Shown: positions 9,851 through 39,352 of the stretch, piece after piece
Layout: every line of letters starts with the position of its first letter
Position numbering within the stretch: position 1 is the stretch's first letter
Assembly: GCF_000466425.1 (NCBI RefSeq)
Contig: NZ_KE992182.1
Location: 1-59,401 of the forward strand
Origin: Capnocytophaga sp. oral taxon 863 str. F0517
Lineage (GTDB): Bacteria; Bacteroidota; Bacteroidia; Flavobacteriales; Flavobacteriaceae
Direction: 5' to 3'
DNA: 59,401 nt
The notes under the pieces: model-generated
The model's database searches: none
Seen by the model: the letters and a program-made list of their open reading frames with translations, nothing else
Told to the model about the DNA's origin: nothing
Translations under genes and position numbers: made by a program

Positions 9851-10140
9851 TGCGAATCAATAGTTAAAATAATACACTTTACACAGTAATCCATTGATAT
9901 TCAGAATATTTTTTTCTACATCCCCCTAGCCCCCCTCAAGGGGGGAATCACAGAGTGGTATCAAGTAGAATATTGAACAATCACACTTAAATATGCTGAA
10001 TATCAGCATGATAGTTCAGCGGTGTCCTATTCCCCCCTTGAGGGGGGCTAGGGGGATGTAAATGGAAAATATTAATAATGAGTTATTTGCAACTTGTTTA
10101 TATACCCGCATCTTTATTCTTTTAACTATTGATTTGCGCC
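9851..10140. repeat. Near-palindromic mobile-like repeat, copy 1 (core inverted relative to copies 2 and 3)
   Basis: The ends are inverted repeats (TGCGAATCAATAGTTAAAA at the left; the complement of GCGCAAATCAATAGTTAAAA at the right). Inside are two perfect 31-bp inverted repeats at 9918-9948 and 10029-10059, each holding a CCCCCC-TCAA-GGGGGG hairpin. They flank an 80-bp core (9949-10028) with an internal palindrome (ATGCTGA...TCAGCAT). The outer arms differ from each other, so orientation can be read: left arm A, right arm B. There is no coding potential and no transposase. The design resembles REP/BIME pairs or a MITE. This element and the flanking repeats fill the 574-bp gap between pdhB and the adhesin gene. 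Confidence 0.9.
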
Positions 10141-10181
10141 ATTAACCATTGATCATTGATCATTAACCATTGACCATTGTT
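10140..10181. repeat. Six heptamer units of CATTRAY type
   Basis: Reads CATTAAC, CATTGAT, CATTGAT, CATTAAC, CATTGAC, CATTGTT with no gaps, directly abutting the right end of element copy 1. Confidence 0.85.
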
Positions 10182-10215
10182 GTTAATAACTTTTGATAAA
10201 ATCCATTTTAGGGGC

Positions 10216-10246
10216 TTGACTTTAAGAAAAAAATAGTTTAATTTTG
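10216..10246 (+). promoter_or_regulatory. Promoter of the giant adhesin gene
   Basis: TTG at 10216-10218 and TAATTTTG at 10239-10246 are 20 bp apart. Transcription would start near 10252, which places the ATG at 10276 about 24 nt into the message. It excludes the upstream TTG at 10252 as a start. Confidence 0.75.
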
Positions 10247-10275
10247 CGCACTTGAAAATCCTAAGAGATTCTAAG

Positions 10276-13200
10276 ATGATAAAAAGTATCCAACAATGGC
10301 AAAAAGTCTGGGGGCACCTAATATGGTGCGCCTGGGCTCTTGTATTTTCTTCTGTAGCCTATGGGCAAAGTCCAGGCTGTGGGAGTATGCCTTCTGAGGG
10401 TTTCGGCGGTGCCGGAGTGACAGAGAAGCGCATTAATAATTTGAACGTAACTCGTACCATATATGGTACGCAGGTTTTTAGCTCCGCAGGAAAGGTCAAA
10501 TATTGTAGTGACCAACCTAACTCTCCGGCTGGAATGGTCTTTATGGGGAATGATCTAGGGGCTAATAGTACCGGTACTCCGGTACAAGGAGCGACTTCGG
10601 TCAAGTATACTTTTGACCAACCGGTGGCTAGTGCCGAAATCTACCTTATAGGTTTCGGAGGGAGTAACCCTGGAGGGAAACTCGACCAGGTGGTCTTTGC
10701 GACCAATGCAGGAGCGGGCTTTACCCTAAGCAAGACTTATGATTGTAATAATATCGTGAGCTTGCTGCCCAATGGAGCACAAGCAGGGAACGATATGAAG
10801 ATTACCGATGCGGCTATCAAAATTACTGGAAATAAGCCCTTTACGGAGCTGACCATACGAGTATCGGCGACCGATCAGTCGGGTTTCTTCATGGAGCTGT
10901 GCCCGGATTTGCGAAGGGTAGCTAATATAGTTGTATATAATGTATTACAGAGCCAACAGGTATGTGTAGGTACTACTCCTGTCTTCAAAGGGAAGTTAGG
11001 AATAGACTCAGCTTATACCGGAGGTATCGAGACCTACCAGCTTCAAGTGAAAAAGAATGGTTCCAGTACTTGGGAGAATGTACCAGGAATGCGCTATTCA
11101 GGGACGAATTTAGGGGAGAAGACCTTTACCCCGTCCCAACTTTCTGCAGCCACTTATCACGATGCTAAGGTAAGGGTGGCCTATACCTATACTTACCCAA
11201 CGAAGTTTACCGGAACGGCTACTGCTTATTCTCAGGAGGTAGACCTGAAGATCAATCAGGCAGAGATCACCTCCGTGACACTCAGCCCTACTTCCTTCAA
11301 CCGAGGTACGCCAACCAATGTAACCTATACGATACAAGGTACCCCTAATGCTGAAATCCGTTATGAGGTAGATGGAACCGCCAAGACGGCTACCCTCAAT
11401 GCTAGCGGACACTATAGCGAAAGCAAGACCGTTACCGACGATACCTATCTGAAGGTAACAGAGGTCAAAATAGGAGCTTGTACCCAAGTGATTAGTCAGA
11501 GCCAAACTCTTAGAGCAACTGCCCCTCTTACGCCTTCTTCTCTTGTAGCCGACCTACAACTCACCCAACTTATTGGCTGTGGTACAGGTGTTAATGCTGA
11601 TAAGGCAGAGGTAACCGCTAAGGTAGAAGGTACCGGCTACCAATTCGACTTTGGTACCGGTTGGCAGACCTCTAACAAGGGCTGGCTTACCGCAGGCAAT
11701 CATACCGTACGTATCAAGCAAGGCAGTAATGTACTTACCAAGACCATTACCGTTCCTGCCAAGCCTGCTACCCCTACCTTTACCCCTCAGATAGAGCCTA
11801 CTGCTACAGCGGCTAATGTATATCTGCTGAACAACCAACCTACTTACCAATATAGCTATACCTATAATGGGGAGACCTCCAATTCTTTCTTTATCCGTAA
11901 CATGCCAGAGGGGGCTAACACGGTACAGGTGAATTATACTGCTCCTTCTTTGGAAGAAGAGCTTATCTTCTATGATGATTTTGGTAAATATGAAGGTGGA
12001 GCAGCTAAAGGAGTTAGTAGTCCTTATGCCAATCCAAATGTGTACTTTGCCCCCTTGGATGGCTCTGGCAAGCAGTATCTCAATAATGGGAGTGGTGCAG
12101 CTCGTACCAGTGATTTTGGTTTAGATGCCTGCTATACTGTAGCCAGTGTAAGTAGACCAGGAGTGATTGATTATACAAATGCTTTGTTGGATCCTCCTCA
12201 TTATTGGCGCTATCCTAATGATAAGGATGGTGATCCGAATGGACGGGTACTCTGTTATAATTCTGTAGTAGACAATCCTCGGGCGGTAATCTACAAACGA
12301 AAAGCAACAGTACGTCCTCATACACAAGTGAATTTTTCTGCTTATGTATACAACACTATTGCTCATAATAATACAGGTGGACTTGGGGCAAATTGGGTAA
12401 TGCCTATGCAGCTTCAGGTATTTGCTACTGAAGCAGATGCCGATGCGGGCACCGCTCCTTTGTTCACCTCTTATCAGTTTAATATACCTAGATGTACCAG
12501 TCGTGATGACTGGCACCCTATGAAGGTTACTGGTTATACAGGAAGCCATACCGAGCTTTTCTTCGTAGTGCGTATGTTACCTGGTGGAGGGAATGATGTA
12601 GCTGTGGATAATATAAGGGTAAGCCAACCTGTGGCCAACTGTGCTAATACACTTCCTGTAACGGTGAATGTCCCAGCTTCCTCTGTGAAGCTCAGTGGTA
12701 CTTACGACTGTACCACCCAAAGCGGTAAGATAGAGATCACAGGGCTACCCGCAGGCTATACCTATAGCTTGGACGGGGGTACCTTCCAGTCCTCCGGTAC
12801 TTTTAATAATGTATCGATAGGTACTCATACCCTTACCTATAAAAAAGGTAATCCTAATATTATCTTTAAGGAAGACTTCCGCTCAGGAGAGCCTTATTTG
12901 CTGCCGACCGATGTGGTACCACCACCTTTTGTAGGGCGAGACCACCTGATCGGTTATCCGGCCGATATCTTACCAGAAGGGCATTATCAAGTAGCGAATA
13001 AGCAGAACCTGACTAAAAACCAAAATTGGGGATGGATAAGTCCTCAAGACCATACGGGCTTGGGTGCCCAGGGACGCTATTTGGCGATTAACCATGGGGC
13101 TAATGCTAATCAGGTTTTCTATAAAAAGACTCTAAAGGTAGCCAAGAACAAGGCCGTTACCTTAAGGTACTATGGCTATAACCTGAATCCAGATAATCAT

Positions 13201-16200
13201 CCTTATAATGCCAATATACGTACAGTCTTTGTAGACAAAGCCAGTGGAGCGGAGATTCCGGCTTCTGTCAAAGTAGAAGAAATAAAAAATCGTGCTCATG
13301 ATAACGACTGGACGGAGGTAACTCATACCTTTAATCCAGGAGAGGCCACTGAATTGGAATTACGCTTTACTAATACTAATAATTCAGAAGGAAGTAATGA
13401 CTTCGTTATCGATGATATCTTAGTAACCCAGTCCGATGAGATTACCGAGACGGTAGAGATAACCAATCCTACCATGGCACCGATTCTCACCAATCAAAGG
13501 GTCTGTACAGGCACTAAGGTATCGGAAGTATTCTCCGGTTATAATAACTTAAAATGGTATACCACCGCTGCTATGGGAGGTACGGCTTTGGCTGCTACTG
13601 ATGTGCTAACGGCTCGTACCTACTATATCTCCCAGGTGGAGAATGGTTGTGAGAGTCCGCGTACCCAAGTGACCATCACCCTTAGCGCTGCGGTGGCGCC
13701 CCCTACACTAACCACTCCACAAGAGTTCTGCGTGGGGGAAGGCAAGAAGCTCTCCGATATAGCTGCCAATAACTATGTATGGTATGATGCCGCCACCGGA
13801 GGCAATCCACTTTCGGCAGAGACACTCTTGGAAACCAAGTCTTACTATGTGGCAGCGACCAATGCCGATGGTTGTGAAAGTATAACCCGCCAGGAGATCA
13901 GGGTGACACTGAAGAACAAGCCTACCCTTACCTATATAGGAGTATCGCCCACCATCTTGAATCCAGGAGCTAATACCCTTACCTATACCATCAAGGGTAC
14001 TCCGGGGGCAAAAGCTACCTATACCTTTGATGGGGGAGCGCCCGAAGAGTTGACCCTCAATGCTATGGGAGTGGCTACCGTAACCAAGACAGGGGTAAGC
14101 CATGCGGTAGTTTTGGATGTTACTAAGTTGGAGAAGGCTGGCCTATGCGACCTCACAGGCATCCACTACAAGGCGGAGGTGACCACCACAGCGGCTGCCG
14201 CGGCCGGGGCTACTTGTAGCCAACACCCGACCCCTCAGTTCCCTACCCAAGCCCTTGCCAAAGCAACCATGAATGGCATAGAGGTAACCCGTCGCATCAT
14301 AGGAACCGAGCGTTATGAGTTTGTACCTGTAATGAATGATCCTCTAAATGGATTTTGCTATAATCCTGTATTATATGGTCATCCGGCTATGAATAAGAGA
14401 GAAGAAGGACGTGCGGCTCAAAAGATTATTTATACCTTTGACAAACCCATTACTCAGGTACAGGTGTGGGAATCAGGAATGATAAGAGACCCAGCGGATG
14501 GAGATGGAGTGAAAATTTCAGTAAATTGCGGAGGTACCTTAACTACTTCTATTACTAATTGTGAAAATAGAAATAATTGGGGCCTGACATTTGATGAAGA
14601 CGGAGAGAGAGCATGGGTTCCACAAATGCTGGAATTCACCCAAGGGGCTGTATTGGTTACTTCCTCAAAGCCCTTTACAGAGCTTGTATTGAAGGTACGC
14701 AATAATATAGGAAGAAGCCTTTATGGCTATACCGTAGAGCTTTGTCCACTATCGTTGCGCCCCGCTGCGATTGATATCTCAGCGCAGCCCCAAGCCCTTA
14801 GTGCTTGTGTCGGCCAGGCGGGTGAGACCCTCTCGGCTACGGCACAGCTTACAGGAGCTACCACAGGTGACCTAAGCTATGTTTGGCAACAGTCCGAGAC
14901 ACCTATGCTCGAAAGCAGTTGGACAACTGCGGTGGCTGCTTCGGGAGTAAGTGGTACCATTCCTGCGACAGGGGGTACAGCGACCCTGACCCTTAATGAT
15001 ATCAAGGCAGCGGATCACCAGCGCTACTACCGCGTACGCTTTAGCTATGGCGATACTTGCGGTGCCGATGTAGAACAATATTCTCGTGTGGCTCAGCTAA
15101 CGGTTAATACAGTAGCTGTACCCGTGGTGGACAACACTCAGGTGGCTTGTCCGACCCAGGCGCCTACAACCTTCGACCTCTCGGGCTTGGTGACCCCAGC
15201 GGCAGGACATACCCTCAAGTGGTATGAGGCCTTTGCAGGGGGTACCGCCTTAGCTGCTGCACCACAAGTACAGCGACAAGTGACCCAGCCAACTACCTAT
15301 ACCTATTATGTAAGTCAGGTGAATGCCACAGGATGCGAATCACCTCGTACTCAGGTGACTTACAAGGTAGCTATAGGAGACCAACGCCCTGTGATTACAT
15401 TGCCAGCTACCGACTTAGCGCTGAACTGTGAGGATACTAATATTGATACTCAAGTGAATGCTTGGTTGGCAACCGCACAGGCCTCCACTCCTTGTGGAGA
15501 AGTGAGCCTCACTAACAACTTTGCAGCTGTACGCCCTGGCAACCTCTGTAATACAGATCAAATAGAGGTAACCTTTACCACTACTGACCTTTTCGGTGGC
15601 AAGGTGACCGCTACCAAGGCTATTAAGCTGGTACATCTCAATACTCAGGACGATACCGCTACCATAGCCCGCAATACGGGAGGCACTATCAATGTCCTTG
15701 CAAACGACCGTATCAATGGAGGATTGGCACAACATCCGACCAATGTGGTGGTGACCCTTACTGATCCAGCAGGTACAGGAGCTACCCTAACTCCTGATGG
15801 CAAGATTCAGATCCCAGGAGGCACCCTCGCTGCTAATACCTATCCTATAAGGTATACCGTATGCGATGCCGCTCATGCCGCTATCTGTAAGACGCATACC
15901 CTTACTCTTACGGTAACCGATAATAACTTGGTAGCTACCAATGATGATAGCAACGATGTCCTTATACGCAGCACCACAGTCGATCAATATGTACGAGTGG
16001 GAGGTGCCGCACTGAATATCTTGGCCAATGATCTCTTGGGCAGTGCAGCCCCTACTTTGGCACAGGTAGAGATACAGCCTACCAATACCCTAACCGGCCT
16101 AAGTATCAATAGAACCACAGCAGAGGTGAAAGTGGCAGCGGGTACTGCTGCGGGTACTTACCAGCTCAAGTACAAGCTCAAGGAAAAAGGTACTGAAAAC

Positions 16201-19200
16201 CTTTCTAATGAGGCGACCATCACCGTGGTGGTTACAAGTGAGGTAAGCCTGCTTGAGCGTACTCCAACCTATAGTGGCCAACCTTCCAAGACGGCCATCC
16301 CTACCGAGGCAGGTAATGCACTGACCCCTGTACGTATCCCAGGCAACCCTGCTGTACCAGCGATCACCGAGGTGGTAATAAGGGATATTGTCCCAGCCAC
16401 TCCACGTCCAGGCTCTTCCGTAGTGCCTAAGATAGATCCTGCCACTGGCAAGGTGCTTATCCCACAAGGAACGCCAGCGGGTGACTATACTATTAAATAT
16501 AAGGTATGCGATAAGGCCAATCCACAAAGTTGCAGTGGGGAAATCACCGCAACCGTGAAGGTAACTGCGGGTATTCTCTTGGCGGAGGCCGACCTCTCCA
16601 ATACAGAAATCCGCTATGCCACTACCGAGCAAGTGGTACAGAAGGATGGTGCGAACCTCAACCTCTTGGCCAACGATAAGCTTGATGGGGTAGCCCCCAC
16701 GCTCGCACAGGTGAGCCTTACCGCTACCCATAACGAAGAAAAAGTTACGATAGATCCAGCTACAGCGACTGTCAAGGTAGCTGCTGGTACTACAGCAGGA
16801 GTATACACCCTCCGATATACGCTGACCGAACAAGGCCAAACTACTGCTTCCAACGAAGTGGAGGTGAAGGTCGTAGTCAAGAACAACTTAGAGGTGAATC
16901 CAATCACCATCCCAGCATCCAATACCCCTTCTACCCGAGGTAGAGATAAGGAATTGGGCAATATACTCAATGGGGTGAAGATCAATGACGAGCAACCTAC
17001 GCTCGACAAGGTAATGATCACAGTACCTACTCCAGCCACACCTAAGAGAGCAGGAGCAGCCGTACCTTATATAGATCCGCTTACCGGTAAGGTCATCCTC
17101 CCACCAGCAGTGCCCGATGGTACCTATAACCTTACCTACCAAGTATGTGATGCCGCTCAGGGTGAAGCCCAGCATTGTAAGACACAAACCCTTGCCGTAG
17201 TGGTGGACAAAAATACGATCGAAGCCCAAGAAGATGACTATACCAATGCTGTTTATACAGTACCTTTCTCTGCCACAGAAGCTCGTATTATAGGTGATGG
17301 AGCTCCAGTGAGTGTCTTGGACAACGATACCTTGGCAGGGCTCTCAGTGACCCCATCCCAGGTGGAAATAGTAGAGGTGACAGGAGATGGTCAAGTTCAT
17401 ATTGATAGAAACACAGGCTACATCACTGTAGGAGCCAATGCGAGTATAGGGGAACATACTTTGACCTATAAGATTAAGGAAAAAGGTACCGACAACCTCT
17501 CTCAGGCTGCTACTGTAAAAGTAGTGGTGGATACTGACAATAAGCTGGAAGGGCTTTCTCATTATGAGGTGAGCAGTAAGAAGCCTACTGATAATAGTAC
17601 TAAGGTAATAGGTAATATCTTTACCTTAGGGCAGGTGAAGTACAATGGAGTGCTACAGACCGCTCCAGGCCAGCTCACAATAACGAACATTCCTTCCTAT
17701 GGGGTTCCTGCTTCACTCACTATAGATGAGACAACAGGAGAGATCAAGACCACTAAAGATACGCCTGATCGTACTTATTGGCTTTCTTATATGCTTTGTG
17801 ATCAAGCAACACCGCAGCTTTGCAAGGATGTTCGAGCGGTTGTACGTATAGGTTTAGAAGAATTCAAGGCGAATGATGATAGTCAGGACAACACTTTCCT
17901 TCCAGTAACGGTTTCCAATACCGCTACAGTAGTGAAGAAGGATGGTACGAATGCAGCGAACATCTTGGACAACGACAAGCTTGGGGATATGGTAGGACTC
18001 AATACCAACCAAGTAACCATCCTAACTACAGCTACTTCGCCCTACCTCTCTACCGATAATAGTGGTAAGGTCACCGTGGCAGCCAACACACCAGCAGGCT
18101 TGCACAGATTTAAGTACAAGCTCTTGGATAAGATAAACTTGGGTAACGAGACGGATGAAGCCACCGTTACCATAGCCGTGAAGAACAATATGGTGGTAGG
18201 AGTCCCTACCCTAAGTCCCGCCAAGCCTGCGGTAGATAATACGCCAAGGGAAATAGGTGATGTACTGGAACCAACGACCATCAATGGCCAACGACCCAAT
18301 GCTGGGGAAGTTACCATTAACGTAGTTACCCCTGCGCTTCCTACTCCTCAAAGCCCTGCGGTACCTTATATAGATACAACAACCGGTAAGATACTCGTGC
18401 CTAAGGGAACTCCGATAGGTTCGTACCCTATTACTTATGAGATTTGTGACCAGGTAAATATAGAGGCACGTACTTGTAAGCGACAGACGGTAACTATAAA
18501 TGTAGCACCTAATGATATAGAAGCGAAGGACGACCGACAAAGCAGCTCTCCCGATGTCCCTTACAAGGTACAGAAGAGCAGCGTACCTACCGAGCTTAGA
18601 GACAGTGGCAATGCGATTGTCAATGTGTTGGATAATGATGTCTTAGGTACTCGTACAGGCTTCTTGGATACCGATATAGTAGAGATAGAAGCCCTTCCGG
18701 ATCCTTCCAATATCAAGGTAGATGTGACCACCGGTCGGGTACTCATCCCCGCCAATACCCCAGCTGGAGAATACAATATTAGCTATCGTATCAAGGAAAG
18801 AGGAAACACAGCCTCCCCAGTAGGCCATGTCTTTGTAGCGGTGACCAATAGGATAGAGGTGGAAACGCCTGTCTTCCGTGGAAAAGCAGCTACCGGAACG
18901 ACCCCTGCTGAAATAGGCAATGTGATAGATAAGGTGAAGCTCAATGGTACTCCAGCCCAAAGTGCAGACTTGGTTCCTATAACAATCGTAACCCCTGCCT
19001 CCCCACAAGCGGGAGGTACCCAGGCGCCAACCATTGAGCCAAATGGTAAGGTATTGGTGCCCCAGGGTACAGCTCCAGGTACTTATACCATTGTCTATAA
19101 GCTATGTGACCACCCAAGTCCGCAATCACAGACCTGCCAAGATATCACCACAACGATAGAGGTAACCCCTTCCAATCTACAGCTCAATCCCGATAATACC

Positions 19201-22200
19201 GCTCGGGTACCTAAGACAGGTGGAGAGGTAGCTGTATTGGGCAACGATACCCTTAATGGGGTGCCCGCTACCACCGATAATGTGGAAATCACTATCGATA
19301 ATGACAGAGGTATCGGAGCCACCATAGGCCCTGATGGCAAGATCATAATACCTAATAACGTAGCTCCTGGTGAGCATACTATTACCTATAAGGTATGTGA
19401 AAAAGGACAAACTTCTCAGTGCCAAACCGCAGAGGTGAAGATTTCTGTTCCTGCCAACATCACCCTAACCGATGATGCCCCAGCAACCATCCCTCATATA
19501 GGAGGTGCTGTGGATGTGTTGGCCAACGATACTGTCAATGGAGGATCTGCCAATCGTGGTAATGTGGATATCGCCATTACCAACGATGGTAATACAGGAG
19601 CTGATATAGATCCTGATGGCAAGATCCGTATTCCTGAAGGAGTATCCCCAGGGGAACATACCATTACTTATAAGGTATGTGAAAAAGGGCAAACAGACAA
19701 TTGCCAAACCAAGACACTCAAGATTACCAGCTTAGGCGAGCTTGTTCTCAATGACGATGATACGGCTCGTATCCCTAAGACTGGAGGTCAAGTGGATGTC
19801 CTAAGCAATGATATCCTAAGTGGAACCCCTGTCACAACCGATACGGTAAGCATCGAAATTACTGATGCCGATGGTACCCATGCTACGATAGACAATGGCA
19901 AGATCAAAGTACCGGCCCCTGGCGATGATGTCACCCCTGGTGAGCATACCATTACCTATAAGGTGTGTCAGAAGAATACGACTAATTGCCAGACCAAGAC
20001 GGTGAAGGTATCCATCCCTGCGCGTATCCAGCTCAATGACGATGATCCGGCAACCATCCCTCACACAGGAGGTACCGTGGATGTGCTAACCAATGACCGT
20101 GTCAATGGAGGAGCAGCCAATACCTCCAACGTGGATATCACTATTACCAATCCTGACGGAACGGGAGCTACGATAGATTCCGATGGTAAGATTCGTATCC
20201 CTGCGAGGGTTACCCCAGGGGAACATACCATTACCTATAAGGTATGTGAAAAAGGGCAAACAGACAATTGCCAAACCAAGACACAGAAGATTACCAGCTT
20301 AGGCGAGCTTGTCCTCAATCCGGACAATACCGCTCGGGTAACTAAAGTAGGAGGTGAGGTAGATGTCCTCTCCAACGATACCCTAAATGGTGACCCTGTC
20401 ACAACCGATACGGTGACCCTTGAGATAGAGGATGCCGATGGCAGTGGTGCAACCGTAGAAAATGGTAAGATCAAGGTACCTGCCAATGCGGCTCCTGGTG
20501 AGCATACCATCACCTATAAGGTATGTCAGAAGAATACGACCAACTGCCAAACGGCAACTGTCAAGGTCGTGGTCTTGGAAGAAGATATCGCTGCCAATGA
20601 CGATAATTATACGGTGCAGTGGTCAGCGACAGCCACTACGGTGAAGGATAACAATCGTCGTGAGGTGAATGTCCTCTCCAACGATGCTTTTGATGGTACC
20701 AATGGCCCTACTACCACACAAGTGGATATTGTACAGACCGCCGCTTCTGATCCGGATAAGGTGTTCTTGGATACCGTGACTGGTAAGGTAAAAATAGCCG
20801 CCGATGTACAGGGAGGTACCTATACAGTGACCTATACCATCCAGCCTAAGGGACGTCCCAGTCCTGTGAGTGCTCCTGCGACGGTTACTATAGTGGTGAA
20901 GAACAAAGTGGAACTATCCGACGATCGCATCCCAGTAAGGCCATCTGATGACCCTACTCCTGCAGGAAACATCTTGGATAATGTGAGAGTCAATGGTAGA
21001 AGACCTCAGGCAGGCGAGGTAACGCTCACGGTAACCCCTCCAGCAGGTTCGCCAGTGCCTTCTATCAATCCTAATACAGGAGAAATTACTGTCCCAGGCA
21101 ATGTGCCTGCTGGTGATTATCCTTTCCAAATACAGGTCTGCGATAGGCAAACGCCTCCTACTTGTCAGTCGAAACAGATTGTTGTGAAGGTCAATCCGAA
21201 CCAAGACCTTGAAGCGGTGGATGACCCTGAATATAAGGTAGGAACCGCAGGAGGCACCTCTACGATAAATGTCTTGGACAACGATAAGTTGGGTACAGAA
21301 GTAGGCCTCAGAGGCAAAGAAGGTATTACGGTACAAAAGCTAAGAACAGAGCCTAATATAGCCGAAGTGACCAACAATATTGTTCTTGGAACAGATGGAT
21401 TTATTACTGTAAAACCAGGTATTGCAGTAGGTAATTATGAACTCTACTACGAAGTTCATAAGGATAGAATGAGTGCTATCGCCAAGGTGCGCATCCGAGT
21501 AACGGATGTGATCGCAGGAGAAGATAATATTTCTGTAGAACGTCCGCTCGAAGGACAACCTGATAAGGTATCCGAACAGAGTGTATTGGGCAACGACAAC
21601 GTAGCCTCCAACGAGCGAGCTACTCCCGAAACGGTACAGATAGAGGAAATAGAGATAAGCAATGTGGATCCTTCAGGACCAGCTCCTGACGGTAAGATTA
21701 GCCTCGATCCTGCCACTGGTAAGATCGTCGTGAAGCCTGGAGCTCCTATAGGAGAATATACCGTCAAGTATAAGATCCGTCCTAAGGAAAGTACCTCCGA
21801 TGCTGACTGGATCACCGGCGAGGACAAAGTGAAGATCACCCCTAACTTCTCAGTTAGTGATAAGGACTTCACCAATCCTCCAGTAATGACCAACCAGTCG
21901 CCAGGAGTAACTAAGAGTGTCTTGGATGGCGATACCTTAGAAGGACAGCCTCTTACCCCTGCAGATGTGACCTTGACTATCACCGATCAGCCAGGTATCT
22001 CCGAGAATGTTACTTTCGATGACCAAGGACGATTGGTAATCCCACAAGGAACGCCATCGGGTACCTACCCCATCAGGTATAAGATAAAATCCAATGCCTA
22101 TGGCATAGAGAAGGAAGTAACTGTAATGGTGAAGGTTGAAAATGATATAACTCTTGAGTTCTATAATGCGATCTCAACCGACGAAGGAAGTCCGAACAAC

Positions 22201-22443
22201 GCCTTTATCATCAAGAATATACAGTACTATCCTGATAATAACCTCAAGATATACAACCGCTATGGGGTGTTGGTGTTCGATAAGGACAATTATACCAATG
22301 AGGAACCATTCCGAGGTATCTCCGAAGGACGTGCTACCCTAAGCAAAGACAGCAAGCTACCACAAGGTACTTACTTCTATATCTTAGAGTACAAGGCCAA
22401 AGGCGAAAGCCTACAGAAGTCAGGATGGCTCTATGTTAAGTGA
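10276..22443 (+). CDS. Giant modular cell-surface adhesin, T9SS type B substrate (~4055 aa)
   Basis: The start is the ATG at 10276, which begins a signal peptide cleaved near AYGQ. Visible layout, in approximate residues: 33-223 a Cys-containing domain (VTRTIYGTQVF...KPFTELTIRV) repeated in divergent form at 1313-1494; 560-780 and 860-1053 two jelly-roll-like domains (EELIFYDDFG, NIIFKEDFRS, each ending in a D-D/N-I-x-V motif); 1055-1215 CHU-type Ig-like domains (WYTTAAMGGTALA, YISQVENGCES); 1705-1790 an HYR-like segment. From ~1792 to ~3955 run about 20 cadherin/Ig-like modules carrying NVLxND, GKIxVPxG, GTYTITYKVCD and a Cys pair. The last ~98 residues are a CHU_C sorting domain (YNRYGVLVFDK, LPQGTYFYILEYK). 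SprB-like adhesion or gliding is inferred from architecture. Confidence 0.92.
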   Translation: MIKSIQQWQKVWGHLIWCAWALVFSSVAYGQSPGCGSMPSEGFGGAGVTEKRINNLNVTRTIYGTQVFSSAGKVKYCSDQPNSPAGMVFMGNDLGANSTGTPVQGATSVKYTFDQPVASAEIYLIGFGGSNPGGKLDQVVFATNAGAGFTLSKTYDCNNIVSLLPNGAQAGNDMKITDAAIKITGNKPFTELTIRVSATDQSGFFMELCPDLRRVANIVVYNVLQSQQVCVGTTPVFKGKLGIDSAYTGGIETYQLQVKKNGSSTWENVPGMRYSGTNLGEKTFTPSQLSAATYHDAKVRVAYTYTYPTKFTGTATAYSQEVDLKINQAEITSVTLSPTSFNRGTPTNVTYTIQGTPNAEIRYEVDGTAKTATLNASGHYSESKTVTDDTYLKVTEVKIGACTQVISQSQTLRATAPLTPSSLVADLQLTQLIGCGTGVNADKAEVTAKVEGTGYQFDFGTGWQTSNKGWLTAGNHTVRIKQGSNVLTKTITVPAKPATPTFTPQIEPTATAANVYLLNNQPTYQYSYTYNGETSNSFFIRNMPEGANTVQVNYTAPSLEEELIFYDDFGKYEGGAAKGVSSPYANPNVYFAPLDGSGKQYLNNGSGAARTSDFGLDACYTVASVSRPGVIDYTNALLDPPHYWRYPNDKDGDPNGRVLCYNSVVDNPRAVIYKRKATVRPHTQVNFSAYVYNTIAHNNTGGLGANWVMPMQLQVFATEADADAGTAPLFTSYQFNIPRCTSRDDWHPMKVTGYTGSHTELFFVVRMLPGGGNDVAVDNIRVSQPVANCANTLPVTVNVPASSVKLSGTYDCTTQSGKIEITGLPAGYTYSLDGGTFQSSGTFNNVSIGTHTLTYKKGNPNIIFKEDFRSGEPYLLPTDVVPPPFVGRDHLIGYPADILPEGHYQVANKQNLTKNQNWGWISPQDHTGLGAQGRYLAINHGANANQVFYKKTLKVAKNKAVTLRYYGYNLNPDNHPYNANIRTVFVDKASGAEIPASVKVEEIKNRAHDNDWTEVTHTFNPGEATELELRFTNTNNSEGSNDFVIDDILVTQSDEITETVEITNPTMAPILTNQRVCTGTKVSEVFSGYNNLKWYTTAAMGGTALAATDVLTARTYYISQVENGCESPRTQVTITLSAAVAPPTLTTPQEFCVGEGKKLSDIAANNYVWYDAATGGNPLSAETLLETKSYYVAATNADGCESITRQEIRVTLKNKPTLTYIGVSPTILNPGANTLTYTIKGTPGAKATYTFDGGAPEELTLNAMGVATVTKTGVSHAVVLDVTKLEKAGLCDLTGIHYKAEVTTTAAAAAGATCSQHPTPQFPTQALAKATMNGIEVTRRIIGTERYEFVPVMNDPLNGFCYNPVLYGHPAMNKREEGRAAQKIIYTFDKPITQVQVWESGMIRDPADGDGVKISVNCGGTLTTSITNCENRNNWGLTFDEDGERAWVPQMLEFTQGAVLVTSSKPFTELVLKVRNNIGRSLYGYTVELCPLSLRPAAIDISAQPQALSACVGQAGETLSATAQLTGATTGDLSYVWQQSETPMLESSWTTAVAASGVSGTIPATGGTATLTLNDIKAADHQRYYRVRFSYGDTCGADVEQYSRVAQLTVNTVAVPVVDNTQVACPTQAPTTFDLSGLVTPAAGHTLKWYEAFAGGTALAAAPQVQRQVTQPTTYTYYVSQVNATGCESPRTQVTYKVAIGDQRPVITLPATDLALNCEDTNIDTQVNAWLATAQASTPCGEVSLTNNFAAVRPGNLCNTDQIEVTFTTTDLFGGKVTATKAIKLVHLNTQDDTATIARNTGGTINVLANDRINGGLAQHPTNVVVTLTDPAGTGATLTPDGKIQIPGGTLAANTYPIRYTVCDAAHAAICKTHTLTLTVTDNNLVATNDDSNDVLIRSTTVDQYVRVGGAALNILANDLLGSAAPTLAQVEIQPTNTLTGLSINRTTAEVKVAAGTAAGTYQLKYKLKEKGTENLSNEATITVVVTSEVSLLERTPTYSGQPSKTAIPTEAGNALTPVRIPGNPAVPAITEVVIRDIVPATPRPGSSVVPKIDPATGKVLIPQGTPAGDYTIKYKVCDKANPQSCSGEITATVKVTAGILLAEADLSNTEIRYATTEQVVQKDGANLNLLANDKLDGVAPTLAQVSLTATHNEEKVTIDPATATVKVAAGTTAGVYTLRYTLTEQGQTTASNEVEVKVVVKNNLEVNPITIPASNTPSTRGRDKELGNILNGVKINDEQPTLDKVMITVPTPATPKRAGAAVPYIDPLTGKVILPPAVPDGTYNLTYQVCDAAQGEAQHCKTQTLAVVVDKNTIEAQEDDYTNAVYTVPFSATEARIIGDGAPVSVLDNDTLAGLSVTPSQVEIVEVTGDGQVHIDRNTGYITVGANASIGEHTLTYKIKEKGTDNLSQAATVKVVVDTDNKLEGLSHYEVSSKKPTDNSTKVIGNIFTLGQVKYNGVLQTAPGQLTITNIPSYGVPASLTIDETTGEIKTTKDTPDRTYWLSYMLCDQATPQLCKDVRAVVRIGLEEFKANDDSQDNTFLPVTVSNTATVVKKDGTNAANILDNDKLGDMVGLNTNQVTILTTATSPYLSTDNSGKVTVAANTPAGLHRFKYKLLDKINLGNETDEATVTIAVKNNMVVGVPTLSPAKPAVDNTPREIGDVLEPTTINGQRPNAGEVTINVVTPALPTPQSPAVPYIDTTTGKILVPKGTPIGSYPITYEICDQVNIEARTCKRQTVTINVAPNDIEAKDDRQSSSPDVPYKVQKSSVPTELRDSGNAIVNVLDNDVLGTRTGFLDTDIVEIEALPDPSNIKVDVTTGRVLIPANTPAGEYNISYRIKERGNTASPVGHVFVAVTNRIEVETPVFRGKAATGTTPAEIGNVIDKVKLNGTPAQSADLVPITIVTPASPQAGGTQAPTIEPNGKVLVPQGTAPGTYTIVYKLCDHPSPQSQTCQDITTTIEVTPSNLQLNPDNTARVPKTGGEVAVLGNDTLNGVPATTDNVEITIDNDRGIGATIGPDGKIIIPNNVAPGEHTITYKVCEKGQTSQCQTAEVKISVPANITLTDDAPATIPHIGGAVDVLANDTVNGGSANRGNVDIAITNDGNTGADIDPDGKIRIPEGVSPGEHTITYKVCEKGQTDNCQTKTLKITSLGELVLNDDDTARIPKTGGQVDVLSNDILSGTPVTTDTVSIEITDADGTHATIDNGKIKVPAPGDDVTPGEHTITYKVCQKNTTNCQTKTVKVSIPARIQLNDDDPATIPHTGGTVDVLTNDRVNGGAANTSNVDITITNPDGTGATIDSDGKIRIPARVTPGEHTITYKVCEKGQTDNCQTKTQKITSLGELVLNPDNTARVTKVGGEVDVLSNDTLNGDPVTTDTVTLEIEDADGSGATVENGKIKVPANAAPGEHTITYKVCQKNTTNCQTATVKVVVLEEDIAANDDNYTVQWSATATTVKDNNRREVNVLSNDAFDGTNGPTTTQVDIVQTAASDPDKVFLDTVTGKVKIAADVQGGTYTVTYTIQPKGRPSPVSAPATVTIVVKNKVELSDDRIPVRPSDDPTPAGNILDNVRVNGRRPQAGEVTLTVTPPAGSPVPSINPNTGEITVPGNVPAGDYPFQIQVCDRQTPPTCQSKQIVVKVNPNQDLEAVDDPEYKVGTAGGTSTINVLDNDKLGTEVGLRGKEGITVQKLRTEPNIAEVTNNIVLGTDGFITVKPGIAVGNYELYYEVHKDRMSAIAKVRIRVTDVIAGEDNISVERPLEGQPDKVSEQSVLGNDNVASNERATPETVQIEEIEISNVDPSGPAPDGKISLDPATGKIVVKPGAPIGEYTVKYKIRPKESTSDADWITGEDKVKITPNFSVSDKDFTNPPVMTNQSPGVTKSVLDGDTLEGQPLTPADVTLTITDQPGISENVTFDDQGRLVIPQGTPSGTYPIRYKIKSNAYGIEKEVTVMVKVENDITLEFYNAISTDEGSPNNAFIIKNIQYYPDNNLKIYNRYGVLVFDKDNYTNEEPFRGISEGRATLSKDSKLPQGTYFYILEYKAKGESLQKSGWLYVK
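19177..20583 (+). repeat. Five tandem ~282-bp modules alternating A-B-A-B-A inside the adhesin
   Basis: Modules of about 94 codons begin at 19177 (A1), 19459 (B1), 19741 (A2), 20026 (B2) and 20308 (A3). A-type modules read LVLNxDxTARxxKxGGxV; B-type read IxLxDDxPATIPHxGGxV. Both share GEHTITYKVC. The B-to-A junctions near 19650-19740 and 20217-20307 are almost identical at the DNA level, about four differences in some 95 nt. That indicates recent duplication of a two-module unit or gene conversion. Confidence 0.9.
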
Positions 22444-22456
22444 TAAATAACCAACG

Positions 22457-22551
22457 ATTAGTGACTAATGATTAGTGACTAACGACAAATAAAGTGACGA
22501 GTGACCCAATCCCATACAGGGATAGTCACTCGTCACTTGTCATTAGTCACT
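22457..22551. repeat. Heptamer repeats and long inverted repeat after the adhesin gene
   Basis: CGATTAG, TGACTAA, TGATTAG, TGACTAA run in a 7-nt period. GTGACGAGTGAC (22494-22505) pairs with GTCACTCGTCAC (22525-22536), and the outer TAGTGACTAATG pairs with CATTAGTCACTA. Together they could form one long hairpin and may terminate the adhesin transcript. Confidence 0.75.
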
Positions 22552-22571
22552 ATTATAAAAGGTTATGAGCC

Positions 22572-22600
22572 AAAAAAAAGACCATCCTTTCGGATAGTCT
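22572..22600 (-). terminator. Terminator of the yceD-rpmF operon
   Basis: On the minus strand, stem AGACTATCC / GGATGGTCT around a GAAA-type loop is followed by eight T. It lies about 26 bp after the rpmF stop. Confidence 0.85.
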
Positions 22601-22625
22601 CTTTCTGTTTTATTATCTTTAATTT

Positions 22626-22838
22626 TTAAGCTTCTTTAGCAGCGGATTCAGTTCCAGCAGTAGCATCGATAAGTACTTGTCCGCGGTAGTATAGCTTACC
22701 TTCGAACCAGTGTGCTCTGTGGTAGAGGTGCAATTCGCCAGTGGTAGGGTCTTTAGCTATTTGAGGAACGACAGCGGTGTCGTGAGTTCTTCTTTTGTCT
22801 CTTCGGGTAGAGGATTGTCTTCGTTTGGGATGTGCCAT
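22626..22838 (-). CDS. rpmF: 50S ribosomal protein L32
   Basis: A 70-residue basic protein beginning [20 protein letters not shown], the invariant start of bacterial L32, followed by [20 protein letters not shown]. It is a structural protein of the large subunit. The zinc-binding cysteines of some L32 proteins are absent, so this is the Cys-minus form. It lies 12 bp downstream of the yceD gene, the classic yceD-rpmF pair of bacteria, and is followed by a strong terminator. Confidence 0.96.
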
Positions 22839-26414: not shown

Positions 26415-26467
26415 GAAGTGAAGAGGGAATAATGAAAAGTGAATAGTTAAAAGTGAAAAGTGAAAAG
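26411..26467. repeat. Heptamer repeats of GTGAANA type after the ferredoxin stop
   Basis: Eight successive 7-mers, among them GTGAGAA, GTGAAGA, ATGAAAA, GTGAATA, GTTAAAA, GTGAAAA and GTGAAAA, begin within the ferredoxin stop codon (TGA at 26412-26414). Similar arrays follow other genes in the window. Confidence 0.8.
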
Positions 26468-26491
26468 GAATAATGAGGGGTTAATTATCAG

Positions 26492-26776
26492 TGCGAATCA
26501 ATAGTTAAAAAATAGATTAATATAGTTAATTTGTATAATTGTCAAAGTCTTTTTACGACATCCCCCTAGCCCCCCTCAAGGGGGGAATAGGATACTGTTG
26601 AACTATCATGCTGGTTATCAGTATATTTAGGTTAAACTTTCACCACTCTGTTTGATACCACTCCGTAACTCCCCCCTTGAGGGGGGTAGGGGGGATGTGA
26701 TAATGAAGAGTTGATAATGAGTCACTTACAACTTTTATAGATGTATATATTTCTAGACCTTTAACTATTGATTCAT
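26492..26776. repeat. Near-palindromic mobile-like repeat, copy 2
   Basis: The left end is TGCGAATCAATAGTTAAAA; the right end is the complement of TGAATCAATAGTTAAA. Internal inverted 31-bp arms lie at 26558-26588 and 26668-26698, the right arm slightly diverged. The 79-bp core (26589-26667) reads in the opposite direction to that of copy 1. The right arm is type B, matching the left arm of copy 3. The element and flanking repeats occupy the whole 416-bp gap between the ferredoxin gene and ruvA. Confidence 0.88.
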
Positions 26777-26788
26777 ATTATTAATGCA

Positions 26789-26830
26789 AATCACTAACCT
26801 CTAACCACTAATCACTAACCTCTAACCACT
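26789..26830. repeat. Two perfect 21-bp tandem units abutting the ruvA start codon
   Basis: The unit beginning AATCACTAACC and ending TAACCACT is present twice without change (26789-26809, 26810-26830). The ATG of ruvA follows immediately. Each unit is itself three 7-mers (TCACTAA, CCTCTAA, CCACTAA). Confidence 0.93.
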
Positions 26831-35205: not shown

Positions 35206-35211
35206 AATACA

Positions 35212-35246: not shown

Positions 35247-35271
35247 TGTAATATAAAAACTAATACCCTTA

Positions 35272-37125
35272 CTATGGTTGGAAAGTATCGTTGCTTCTAT
35301 CTATATCGGTGGAGATATGATAGGGGTCAATGATTACTTTTTGGATGTTTTCAAAGGGAATAGCCACCTCAAAGCTATAGGTAGGATATGCCCAACCCCA
35401 GTCGGGGAATACTTGGCGTTCATAGCTATAAGGGTTTGCTTTTTGTCCGAACTGCATGCGTAGCGGGATATAGCAATAGTGGGTCTTACCACTCTTATCT
35501 ACGACAAAGACATCGACAGGGAGGGGAACACGCCCTACGCGGCGTAGGGTGATTTGGGTTTGTGCGCCTTTGCCTTCTACCTTATCTACTGCATAATCCA
35601 CATGATCGGGGGTTTGCATGAACTCGTTGAGGTACCAGCCTAATTGCATACCGGAAACCTCTTCGGCACAGCGGATTAGGTCATGGGGTTGTGGGTGCTT
35701 GAAGGCAAATTTCTTGAAATAGAGCTGTAGGGTCTTCTCTACTTGCTTTTCTCCTATGATATATTCCAACTGGCGAAGAAAGAGACTTCCCTTGACATAA
35801 GCACTTGTGGAATAAGCATAGTTGGTATTGAAGCGATCGGAGTGATGGGTAGGGGTCTCTTCATATTTGGATTTGACATAGCGGTCATAAGACCTATACA
35901 GGCTTACAAAAGGCGCTTCGCCGGTGATACGGCTGGTTGCCAAGTCCTGTATATAAGTGGTAAAGCCCTCGTCCAGCCATGGATAGAGGGTCTCATCGGA
36001 GGCTAAAATATGCTGGAACCAAGCATGGCCTAACTCATGTATCGCAGTGCCCAATAGGGAGCGATAGTCATCCTCTCCTTTGATAAGGGTACACATGGCA
36101 TATTCCATACCGCCATCTCCCCCTTGGATAAAGGAGTATTGTTGCCATGGATAGGGGCCGACAAATTGATTATAGAACTCAAAGGTCTTGAGCATGTCCC
36201 CTTGGATACGCTTCCATATTTCAGGATATTTCTTGTAGAGGAAGTGTAGGGTAACTCCATCGCCAGCATCGAGCTTATCATGGATAAACTGTGGGTCGGC
36301 AGCCCAGGTAAAGTCGTGTACCATGGGTGCATAGAAGTGCCAAGTGCGGGTGTTGCCCTTTACCTTGGGTACTTTCACACCTGTATCCTCGTAGCCGAAG
36401 CCTATTTCGTTCTTGTTCTGCAAGTAACCGGAGCCTCCTACGATATAGTCCTTATCGAGGGTGATTTTTACATCAAAATTGCCCCATACCCCATAGAATT
36501 CACGGCCGATGTATTCGGAGGTATTCCAGCCGCGGTAGTCGTATTCGGCCAATTTGGGATACCACTGGCTCATGGAGAGCGCTACCCCATCGGGGCTGTT
36601 TCTACCAGTACGGCGAATCATCACCGGAGCCTGTCCGGCAAAGTCCATACGGAAGACGGTACTTGAGTGAGGGGCAATGGGCTTGTTGAGTTCTACCTTG
36701 AGGATAGTCCCCTCGGTGTGGTACTTCACAGGAGTGCCGTCTTGGGTGAGGTTATTGACCTTGAGGTAACCGATTTCTTCAGGCTTAAGGGAAGCAATAC
36801 GGCTTTCCTTGATCGTTTTGCCATCGACCTCTTTTTTGGTAACCATACGGCTATCGGGGTCTAAGATGTTTTGCAGGCGGATATCCATCTCGCTACCGGG
36901 CTGGAAAGCGTTTAGGAAAAGATGATAGAAGACAACCTTGAGCGTATCAGGAGCGTTATTGGTGTAGGTAAGCTCCTGCTTTCCGGTGTATTGGTAGTTT
37001 TTTACGTCCATATTGACCTCCATTTTGTAATCTACTTTTTGTTGCCAATAAGGAGCATTTTGCCCTTGGAGGGTACCTATAGTCCCCAATGCTACCAAGG
37101 AGAGCATGTGTCGGTAATTCATCAC
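35272..37125 (-). CDS. M1 family zinc metallopeptidase
   Basis: The 617-residue product has a signal peptide. Its N-terminal half is a saddle-like beta domain (QYTGKQELTYTNNAPDTLKVVFYHLFLNAF). The catalytic core has the exopeptidase loop GGMEYAM (the GxMEN-like site) and the zinc motif HELGH near residue 361, with the third ligand in DEGFTTYIQD 18 residues further on. The length is shorter than PepN and similar to secreted Bacteroidota M1 enzymes. It probably trims amino acids from peptides in the periplasm or outside the cell. A -7 box lies 26 bp upstream; the gene is transcribed alone. Confidence 0.92.
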   Translation of the reverse strand: MMNYRHMLSLVALGTIGTLQGQNAPYWQQKVDYKMEVNMDVKNYQYTGKQELTYTNNAPDTLKVVFYHLFLNAFQPGSEMDIRLQNILDPDSRMVTKKEVDGKTIKESRIASLKPEEIGYLKVNNLTQDGTPVKYHTEGTILKVELNKPIAPHSSTVFRMDFAGQAPVMIRRTGRNSPDGVALSMSQWYPKLAEYDYRGWNTSEYIGREFYGVWGNFDVKITLDKDYIVGGSGYLQNKNEIGFGYEDTGVKVPKVKGNTRTWHFYAPMVHDFTWAADPQFIHDKLDAGDGVTLHFLYKKYPEIWKRIQGDMLKTFEFYNQFVGPYPWQQYSFIQGGDGGMEYAMCTLIKGEDDYRSLLGTAIHELGHAWFQHILASDETLYPWLDEGFTTYIQDLATSRITGEAPFVSLYRSYDRYVKSKYEETPTHHSDRFNTNYAYSTSAYVKGSLFLRQLEYIIGEKQVEKTLQLYFKKFAFKHPQPHDLIRCAEEVSGMQLGWYLNEFMQTPDHVDYAVDKVEGKGAQTQITLRRVGRVPLPVDVFVVDKSGKTHYCYIPLRMQFGQKANPYSYERQVFPDWGWAYPTYSFEVAIPFENIQKVIIDPYHISTDIDRSNDTFQP

Positions 37126-37150
37126 TGTTACAGTTTTGTAATTATGGACA

Positions 37151-37158
37151 CAAAGTTA
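37151..37158 (-). promoter_or_regulatory. -7 box for the M1 peptidase gene
   Basis: The minus strand reads TAACTTTG, a TAnnTTTG match, 26 bp before the ATG at 37125. Confidence 0.6.
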
Positions 37159-37227
37159 CGAATTTTGTAGCGTATTTTCTAATAAAAAATAAAAAAACTT
37201 AGCTTGTCTTATCTGATTTTTTTTTCT

Positions 37228-37235
37228 TATTTTTG
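37228..37235 (+). promoter_or_regulatory. -7 box for the exonuclease gene
   Basis: TATTTTTG lies 28 bp before the ATG at 37263. An in-frame TTG at 37233 falls inside the box and is therefore not a start. Confidence 0.7.
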
Positions 37236-37262
37236 TACCTTCTATCTGATAAAAACTTTCTC

Positions 37263-38033
37263 ATGGAACTGAAACTAACTCGTCCGCTTTGTTTCTTTGA
37301 TTTGGAGACTACTGGCACTGATGTCTCCCGCGATCGCATCGTGGAAATCTCCATATTAAAGGTATACCCCAATGGCAACCGCGAGAGCAAGACCTGGCTG
37401 GTGAATCCTACGATCCCCATTCCGCCTGCCTCTACCGATATTCATGGTATCAGCGATGCGATGGTGTGTGAGGCGCCTACCTTCAAGGAGCTGGCCAAGC
37501 AGATACATAACCTGATCAAGGATTCCGACTTAGCCGGCTATAACTCCGACCGCTTTGATATTCCACTACTGGCTGAAGAACTGCTGCGTGCTGGAGTGGA
37601 TTTTGACCTCAAGAACCGTGTGACCGTGGATGTACAGACGATCTTCCACAAGATGGAACAGCGCACCCTCTCGGCCGCTTATAAGTTCTATTGCAAGAAA
37701 TCCTTGGACAATGCCCATTCCGCTGAGGCCGATACCACTGCCACCTACGAGATCCTCAAGGCGCAGCTCGATACCTATGCCGATACCCTGCCCAATGACA
37801 TCAAGCAACTGAGCGACTTTACCACCCGCAAGCAAGTGGCTGACTTTGCGGGCTTTATCGCCTATAACGAACAAGGAGAGGAGATATTTACTTTTGGCAA
37901 ACACAAAGGGCGCAAGGTAACGGAAATCTTGGACGAAGAACCTGGCTATTTCGGCTGGATGCTCAATGCCGACTTTCCCCTCTATACCAAGAAAGTGCTC
38001 ACTGCGATCCGACTTAGGAAAATGGGACAGTGA
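37263..38033 (+). CDS. DEDDh 3'-5' exonuclease (DnaQ/PolC-epsilon-like)
   Basis: About 256 residues from the ATG at 37263; the frame upstream of this is promoter. The catalytic set is visible: FDLETTGTD (Exo I Asp and Glu), GYNSDRFDIPLL (Exo II Asp), and HSAEADTTATYEIL (Exo III His and Asp). The family includes the proofreading subunit of DNA polymerase III and RNase T-like enzymes. The C-terminal segment (EEIFTFGKHKGRKVTEILDEEPGYFGWML) matches the small domain often fused to such exonucleases in Bacteroidota. It may act as the proofreading subunit or in repair; sequence alone does not decide. Confidence 0.92.
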   Translation: MELKLTRPLCFFDLETTGTDVSRDRIVEISILKVYPNGNRESKTWLVNPTIPIPPASTDIHGISDAMVCEAPTFKELAKQIHNLIKDSDLAGYNSDRFDIPLLAEELLRAGVDFDLKNRVTVDVQTIFHKMEQRTLSAAYKFYCKKSLDNAHSAEADTTATYEILKAQLDTYADTLPNDIKQLSDFTTRKQVADFAGFIAYNEQGEEIFTFGKHKGRKVTEILDEEPGYFGWMLNADFPLYTKKVLTAIRLRKMGQ

Positions 38034-38078
38034 ACAGTGAAGAGTGAACAGTGAAAAGTGAAAAGTGGACAGTGAGTA
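38030..38078. repeat. Seven heptamers (GTGAANA) starting in the exonuclease stop codon
   Basis: GTGAACA, GTGAAGA, GTGAACA, GTGAAAA, GTGAAAA, GTGGACA, GTGAGTA run without gaps. The TGA of the first unit is the stop codon (38031-38033). Confidence 0.9.
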
Positions 38079-38111
38079 ACGTTTTTCACTATTTGCTATT
38101 CACTTTTTACT

Positions 38112-38146
38112 AAAAAACCGCTCTCCAAGAGGAAAGCGGTTTTATT
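38112..38146. terminator. Bidirectional terminator
   Basis: Stem AAAACCGCT / AGCGGTTTT is flanked by A-rich and T-rich runs. It lies between the exonuclease (plus) and the barrel protein (minus). Confidence 0.85.
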
Positions 38147-38174
38147 CATATGGAAGAAAAGTTTATACAATTTC

Positions 38175-38852
38175 TTAGAAGTAAAGGTTTAAGAGAACAG
38201 AAGCAGTTCCGAAACCAGTCTTTTCAGTAGCTCCATTAGCAGGAGAGTTACCAATACCGAATTTGAATGTATTATTTTCACCTGATTTTTCATAACTGAT
38301 GGTTACAGGGAAAGCATATTGAGCTCCTAAAGCTACTTTAGGGAAGATAAAGTACTCAACACCTGCAAATCCTTGTGCACCTAATAAGAAGTTAGTATCA
38401 TTCTTAGCAGGAGAACTGAAGCCGATAAGGGCATCAGCACCATAGAATCCTTGAAGGCGGGTAGTTCCTTTTCTCCACTCTTTACCATAACCAGCTAAAA
38501 GACCAAAGGCTGTTTCAGCGTCATTATCACTTTTTGATTTTTTGTAAGAGAAAAGTAAGTTAGCAGTGTAGCGGTCAGCAGTAGTGTCAGAAGTAAAGTT
38601 TTTTCCTACAAAGCTAACACTATTGGCAAATCCTGGTAGTTTTGTAGCATCATTGCTGTTGAAATTTACTTCATTACCATTGGCACCATTGAAAGCATTT
38701 CCGACAAATTTTAAAGCACTGTTGGCATTGAATCCGATAGACCAGTCACCTTGTTTAGGAAGGTAGTTTTCTCCTTTAGAAGAAACGAGTTCTTGTGCAT
38801 TTGCAAAGCTGAAAGCCAATACAGCTACAGCTGATAAAAGAATTTTTTTCAT
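38175..38852 (-). CDS. Outer-membrane beta-barrel protein
   Basis: I start at the ATG at 38852, which begins the signal peptide MKKILLSAVAVLAFSFANAQ. The frame continues 29 codons upstream, but that part contains the -7 box (38878-38885). The mature ~205 residues alternate polar and hydrophobic strands (GDWSIGFNANSALKFV, RYTANLLFSYKKS, TAFGLLAGYGKEWR, RLQGFYGADALIGF, GAQGFAGVEYFIFPKVALGAQYAFPVTISYEK) and end in SVLLNLYF with a terminal Phe, as for BAM-inserted barrels. No specific family is recognised. Its role is unknown and it is likely an abundant structural or porin-like protein. Confidence 0.85.
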   Translation of the reverse strand: MKKILLSAVAVLAFSFANAQELVSSKGENYLPKQGDWSIGFNANSALKFVGNAFNGANGNEVNFNSNDATKLPGFANSVSFVGKNFTSDTTADRYTANLLFSYKKSKSDNDAETAFGLLAGYGKEWRKGTTRLQGFYGADALIGFSSPAKNDTNFLLGAQGFAGVEYFIFPKVALGAQYAFPVTISYEKSGENNTFKFGIGNSPANGATEKTGFGTASVLLNLYF

Positions 38853-38877
38853 CTTAAAAATGTTTTTAAATTTGGGG

Positions 38878-38885
38878 CAAAGATA
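38878..38885 (-). promoter_or_regulatory. -7 box for the barrel gene at 38175-38852
   Basis: The minus strand reads TATCTTTG, 25 bp before the chosen ATG, and rules out the longer reading frame. Confidence 0.7.
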
Positions 38886-39065
38886 GGTTTTTTTCTTTAA
38901 CCCAAAAATCTTTATGGATGTTTTTTCTATGTAAAACATGTAAGATATTTGTATTCAAGAGGTTACAAAAGGAATATTTTAAGAAAACATTAGTGATTAG
39001 TGCTCTGTGGTTGGTCACTAAGCACTAAGAACGAACCACGTAACTACACAAAAACTAACTGCTAA

Positions 39066-39352
39066 TGCGAATCAATAAGTTAAATAACTAGAAATATAGG
39101 TATTTATAAAAGTTGTAAGTGACTTATTATTAATGATTTATAATTACATCCCCCTAGCCCCCCTCAAGGGGGGAATAGTATGCTGGTGTCAAATAGAGTA
39201 GTGAAGATTTGACCTAAGTATGCTGATAATCAGAATGATAGTTCGGCTGAATGCAATTCCCCCCTTGAGGGGGGCTAGGGGGATGTATAGAAAGATGTTG
39301 AATATCAACGGATTACTATATAAAGTGTATTATTTTAACTACTGATTCGTGT
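39066..39352. repeat. Near-palindromic mobile-like repeat, copy 3
   Basis: The left end is TGCGAATCAATAAGTTAAA; the right end is the complement of ACGAATCAGTAGTTAAAA. Perfect inverted 31-bp arms lie at 39146-39176 and 39256-39286 and flank a 79-bp core (39177-39255). The left outer arm equals the right arm of copies 1 and 2 (type B). The right outer arm equals the left arm of copy 1 (type A, about 85% by eye). The core nevertheless reads in the same direction as copy 1, so core and arms are in opposite phase between these copies. Apart from two promoters, nothing else is seen in the 623-bp gap. Confidence 0.9.

Follow-up and report, generated by a model that had tools for sequence, protein, structure and literature searches.

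Nested inverted repeats as probable recombination joints in a short mobile-like element of Capnocytophaga

Known short repeats and the Capnocytophaga element

Among the miniature inverted-repeat transposable elements (MITEs) described in bacteria, BrickBuilt of Porphyromonas gingivalis occurs in 19 copies in one strain and, in the part of its description available to us, shows target duplications in 3 of the 4 testable copies (PMC4596501). Here we describe a MITE-like family of Capnocytophaga sp. oral taxon 863 str. F0517, first recognised as three elements in a stretch of 59,401 nucleotides (NZ_KE992182.1, the whole of which is hereafter called the window) that is one contig of a 103-contig draft genome of 2.72 Mb. 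The element measures ~285 bp, and two outer arms (A and B) and two inverted inner arms enclose its core. Like BrickBuilt, it is short, carries terminal inverted repeats, shows target duplications in some copies and has no transposase remnant inside; BrickBuilt, according to the same portion of its report, holds a minisatellite, whereas here a second pair of inverted repeats surrounds a core, and core orientation and arms vary between copies (PMC4596501). In element type, the closest counterpart is the bacterial MITE; in mechanism, it is the small inversion of plant chloroplast DNA, for which the excerpts consulted give loops of 5–50 bp and stems of 11–24 bp, said to flip by recombination at hairpins, and which in one Juglans case did not track the tree (PMC5492656, PMC12928735). 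As in those excerpts, a short stretch bordered by short inverted repeats occurs here in both orientations (PMC5492656, PMC12928735), but the loop is ~80 bp, the stems reach 32 bp, the host sequence is a multi-copy mobile bacterial element, and exchange between copies appears to take place as well.

Other systems are more distant. In the accounts of Bacteroidales invertons accessible to us, a short segment between inverted repeats likewise takes two orientations; in our family, in contrast, the promoter motif was not found, and the orientation differs between copies and not at one site. BOX repeats are modular in make-up, and we know of no report of a BOX or RUP core inverted relative to its arms. 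Pneumococcal BOX and RUP resemble the present family as small interspersed repeats of one species, as far as the consulted part of their description goes (PMC3049150). Repetitive extragenic palindromes (REPs) and bacterial interspersed mosaic elements (BIMEs) are, in a source also available in part, multi-copy extragenic palindromes with composite structures; compared with these and with the REP-associated tyrosine transposases (RAYTs), our element is longer, it has a target duplication, and no Y1 transposase was found in its genome (PMC2817692). In the literature searched, we met neither bacterial cases of spacer inversion nor the inner-arm sequence, which is weak evidence as coverage was partial; nor did we meet there a MITE in which a nested pair of palindromes is the joint for both core inversion and arm exchange.

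Core orientation and proposed arm exchange across the family

We propose, with a probability of roughly 0.58, that recombination uses the inner arms as joints, at which exchange within an element inverts the core and exchange between elements swaps arms. The family sample behind this proposal was obtained by BLAST of the first window copy against its own genome (70 matches; 40 of 60 first-look candidates scored) and consists of 28 fetched loci, 22 of which hold the full core; the core falls inside an N gap in L064, L071 and L081, and contig ends cut L065, L067 and L083. A core model built from the 22 cores recovered all of them from the genome, together with matches that were partial or on the reverse strand. 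The three elements of the original prediction were confirmed at positions 9851–10140, 26492–26776 and 39066–39352 of the window, and the family extends well beyond it. Note that the window contains six inner-arm sites (with up to 3 mismatches), and none was found in 100 shuffles.

Scoring the arms against class references separated A1, A2 and B arms genome-wide, so that the predicted distinction between arms A and B holds across the family and the classes did not merge. The arm A of the second window copy, which had been considered diverged, does differ from A1; it belongs, however, to a subtype that can be recognised in its own right (A2) and that L073 and L074 also carry, and that reservation is now lifted. 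Based on both BLAST and the strand of the core model, 17 of 22 copies have the core in the majority orientation with respect to the first arm, and 5 have it in the opposite one, so the count proposed earlier yields both orientations and the core does not simply follow its arms. The majority set includes two copies with a truncated second arm (L066 and L075). Within the opposite set, L061, L062 and L084 read A-flipped core-B, L078 reads A1-core-A2, and the second arm of L087 lies in an assembly (N) gap. Thus, 3 of the 18 copies in which an A arm and a B arm were both typed have a reversed core.

This contrast can be followed in the window itself, where copies 2 and 3 agree and copy 1 is opposite when the core is read from A to B, as predicted and as BLAST and core-model strand both indicate. 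Copy 1 (L084, 9851–10140) runs from A to B on the plus strand: its A1 arm (9851–9917, plus; z 14.1) starts with the terminal inverted repeat and is followed by the left inner arm (9918–9948, plus), a core of 80 bp (9949–10028), the right inner arm (10029–10059, minus), which repeats the left one perfectly in inverted form, and a diverged member of class B (10060–10140, plus; z 8.8). While these arms run on the plus strand, the core model matches on the minus strand with 112.6 bits, against 22.1 bits on the plus strand. Copy 2 (L085, 26492–26776) also runs from A to B on the plus strand (A2, z 14.5; B, z 18.4), with its 79-bp core in the majority orientation (26589–26667, plus) between a left inner arm (26558–26588, plus) and an imperfect right one (26668–26698, minus). 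Copy 3 (L086, 39066–39352) runs from A to B on the minus strand, and its 79-bp core (39177–39255, minus, majority orientation) lies between the inner arm on the B side (39146–39176, plus) and that on the A side (39256–39286, minus), a perfect inverted repeat. The expected core lengths of 79–80 bp are thereby matched, and so is the expected perfection of the inner arms in copies 1 and 3, where the repeats are flush with the core and reach 32 bp (31 bp plus one base); the longest perfect run in copy 2 is 17 bp. When the three copies were folded, the inner arms paired as one long hairpin.

The inner arms are short inverted palindromes, C-rich/G-rich, lying inside a non-autonomous MITE-like insertion. 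When the inner arms within a single element pair with each other, the core would be turned, and A-core-B would become A-flipped core-B; when an inner arm pairs with the opposite inner arm of another element, probably by gene conversion, a whole arm may be swapped, leading to an A1-core-A2 structure. The route could be either ordinary homologous recombination or hairpin template switching. From the sequences, we infer that exchange at the inner arms produced both the flips and the hybrid.

The hybrid is L078, the most informative copy, whose second arm scores 81 as A2 (z 11.6) against 38 as B (z 2.2), and whose core is nearest to those of L073 and L074, both A2 elements with the same core-to-A2 orientation. 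Judged by these arms and this core, L078 is best explained as an arm exchange between elements and not as an inversion. In the simplest history, a B arm would have given way to an A1 arm when an inner arm paired in inverse register, and given the structure of L078 a single inner-arm exchange would suffice. The flanks directly beside the element are collinear with those of two congeners (G007 and G012), as gene conversion would leave them, and a chromosomal inversion at L078 was rejected on this ground. Since L078 is read as an arm exchange, inner-arm recombination is broader than core flipping. As a separate observation, synteny with both congeners breaks ~3.7 kb to the left of L078 (L157 ~6300–6370; near 156.8 kb of contig C89) and not at the element. 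By eye, on the second-arm side of the L062 and L078 cores, the inner arm seems reversed and partly doubled, with its outer end toward the core.

One to three flip events are possible. For the three fully typed flips (L061, L062 and L084), the core tree rejects a single clade (p 0.007), and it does so again when L087 is added (p 0.0066). A test of all five opposite copies also spoke against one origin (p 0.00006 for the core, 0.0024 for the combined tree), but it includes the hybrid L078 and the half-typed L087 and was for that reason superseded by the three-copy test.

Several observations weigh against our proposal. The combined tree of arms and core does not reject one clade for the same three flips (p-AU 0.38), and in the B-arm tree the three group with the unflipped L063. 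L061 and L062, separated by ~2.4 kb, may go back to a single event, and the arm A of L062 is a short remnant (z 4.9). The flush inverted repeat measures only 11 bp in L061 and 5 bp in L062, the long one being kept, among the three flipped copies, only in L084; if inversion used a long flush repeat, later change must have erased it in the other two. Finally, the orientation contrast is seen between copies of one strain and not at one site. Note that an inversion of the whole 2.4-kb segment between L061 and L062 was considered and rejected, the segment and its left side running in the same direction in G007 (the far side of L062 is not resolved). It was also seen by eye that L061 and L062 share odd inner-arm variants.

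Alternative readings and tests of function

The alternative that survives best is a replacement of cassettes, in which gene conversion would copy the core together with the inner-arm halves from one element to another, either way round, and no core would ever turn in place. A donor core could indeed enter in both directions, the inner arms that border it being inverted repeats. The distances between A arms do not correlate with those between B arms (16 copies; Mantel r 0.03, p 0.40), so modules have been reshuffled, and arms and cores are partly uncoupled, as indicated by the Mantel values for A arm against core (r 0.20, p 0.047; 20 copies) and B arm against core (r 0.14, p 0.18) and by A1 arms paired with both core subtypes. 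In addition, L078 provides an example of exchange between elements, and descent from one flipped ancestor, with its core replaced afterwards, would fit as well. In contrast, the flipped L061 and the unflipped L079 are mutual nearest neighbours in arm A (0.05) and in core (0.06), although not in arm B, and yet their cores are opposite, which inversion in place would explain in one step. We consider cassette replacement possible, on the unlikely side.

An artefact, in which the draft assembler crossed the inverted inner arms the wrong way, has to be weighed, the genome being a draft of 103 contigs in which several copies carry 100-N gaps or lie at contig ends, and the perfect, flush 32-bp repeat of copy 1 could be turned by a short-word assembler. 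However, among perfect repeats that start no more than 12 bp from the edge of the core, the longest measures 11 bp in L061, 5 bp in L062 and 3 bp in L078 (L062 has a 27-bp inverted repeat lying 21 and 41 bp outside the core). Such an error is unlikely in these three copies, the core reversal would stand even if copy 1 fell, and an artefact as the general explanation appears improbable.

A third explanation, which we regard as very improbable, supposes that a site-specific recombinase flips the core as a phase-variable switch, i.e., an inverton. Inverted repeats do border a short segment, and invertible promoters are described in Bacteroidales, at least in the portions of that literature consulted. 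Nevertheless, TTG-N16-22-TAnnTTTG, a promoter motif of Bacteroidota and the only promoter type tried, occurs in 0 of 22 elements while being present in some flanks, and the phase-variable promoter was rejected on this single motif. Moreover, the flanking gene arrangements are mixed, and the inner arms vary in length and sequence. Indeed, the neighbouring reading frames, mechanically called, are tandem, divergent or convergent, and this mixture also argues against a dedicated terminator. Lastly, the idea of two old subfamilies, one for each core orientation, comes close to untenable, since the core tree rejects one clade both for the three typed flips (p 0.007) and with L087 (p 0.0066), despite the close B arms and the combined tree of those flips that does not reject it (p 0.38).

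The original prediction had suggested looking for a RAYT gene: the Y1 transposase model PF01797, whose controls match in 5 of 14 genomes, has no match in the genome at an E-value of 0.001 (recombinase genes were not searched for), and the RAYT association was rejected accordingly. A conserved RNA was likewise rejected, as no Rfam match reached the gathering threshold in the 6 of 28 loci searched and core covariation is weak, with changes on both sides in 2 of 26 predicted pairs. Hence, of the ‘invertible cassette’ proposed earlier, what stands is a core orientation that is not fixed relative to the arms; a working switch is not upheld, given the promoter motif in 0 of 22 elements and the missing Y1 transposase match, and a regulatory switch is unsupported. 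Returning to the inner arms as joints, core inversion may be a by-product of the hairpin structure and is probably occasional and neutral rather than programmed.

Mobility, distribution and meaning of the family

The mobile-like character ascribed to the repeat is borne out by its ends and its sites. Terminal inverted repeats of about 20 bp, similar to AATCAATAGTTAAA, are found at both ends, and at ~285 bp the element is, by its length, too short to hold a transposase gene. The flank outside these repeats is a TTANTAA-like target duplication. Ends were usable in 19 of 25 loci, and the 5-bp left and right flanks are identical in 8 of these 19 (1.1 expected); 0 of 300 shuffles reached the match total. 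With L070, L071 and L073 set aside because their ends were poor, 13 of the remaining 16 copies have the same variable centre base of TTANTAA on both sides (5.2 expected, p 0.0002), which makes this the strongest column; one neighbouring column gave p 0.019 and the remainder were near expectation. The flanks of copy 1 agree in just 5 of 9 columns. As for empty sites, ferredoxin and ruvA, which flank copy 2, are found together in 2 of 19 congeners (G007 and G012), in both cases without the element and with a spacing of ~40 bp or less in G007 and 222 bp in G012, and the site of L078 in G007 is also without it. The element is therefore MITE-like, because of both the target duplication and the empty sites in congeners. 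In the genome, 48 end-like sites (with at most 1 mismatch) were found, and no pair of them was recognised by eye as an insertion sequence that could be the autonomous partner. Note that draft assemblies often lose copies of autonomous transposons.

Among the genomes compared, the element appears specific to this species. In the 19 congeners, the BLAST matches listed cover mostly the inner arm, and a few of them reach the neighbouring arm or consist of an arm alone; the core model gave best E-values of 0.01–0.08, in 6 congeners. With stricter filters, the same model had no match in 198 other genomes of the bacterial family (one of which is the congener G010). One core motif searched exactly in genome contigs returned zero matches, in a collection from which this or very near genomes may be excluded. 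Viral contigs contained no exact match to two patterns, and plasmids and phages gave no blastn match; a phage or plasmid origin was rejected on this basis.

The inner arm, in contrast, is more widely dispersed: its C-rich/G-rich palindrome stands alone or in small clusters in congeners (L090–L096, L098–L100 and L104), and because it does so outside this species, the inner arm is a dispersed repeat in its own right. L061, L062, L064 and L076–L080 carry another inner-arm module, CACATACTCCGCTCTCGCGGACTT, which occurs (with up to 3 mismatches) in 13 of 20 genus genomes, our own included. By eye, its short stem seems to vary in matched pairs (CCGC/GCGG, CTGC/GCAG, CCGT/ACGG and CAGC/GCTG).

Other features were observed around the window copies. 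A solo arm-B end (9803–9831, plus strand) lies directly upstream of copy 1, is identical at 29 of 29 positions to the B terminus of that copy, and resembles the relic of a head-to-tail pair. By eye, short degenerate repeats, GTGAAAAGTGA and CCATTAACCATTGACC among them, abound in the flanks of copies 1 and 2 (9716–9790, 10140–10190, 26415–26480 and 26780–26830). In place of positions 9700–22666, which include copy 1 and a reading frame of 4063 amino acids, G007 has ~280 bp and G012 has ~126 bp; copy 1 thus sits at the left edge of a nearly 13-kb block absent from both.

With considerable doubt, we extend the role of the inner arms one step further: a nested dispersed palindrome may be a general joint, at which elements would continually flip their cores and trade arms without a dedicated recombinase, keeping the orientation mixed in the population and giving rise to new types. 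Whatever its breadth, a multi-copy element with distinguishable arms is an internal ruler, in which inversion and arm exchange can both be read from every copy, and recombination between short inverted repeats could thereby be counted within one genome.

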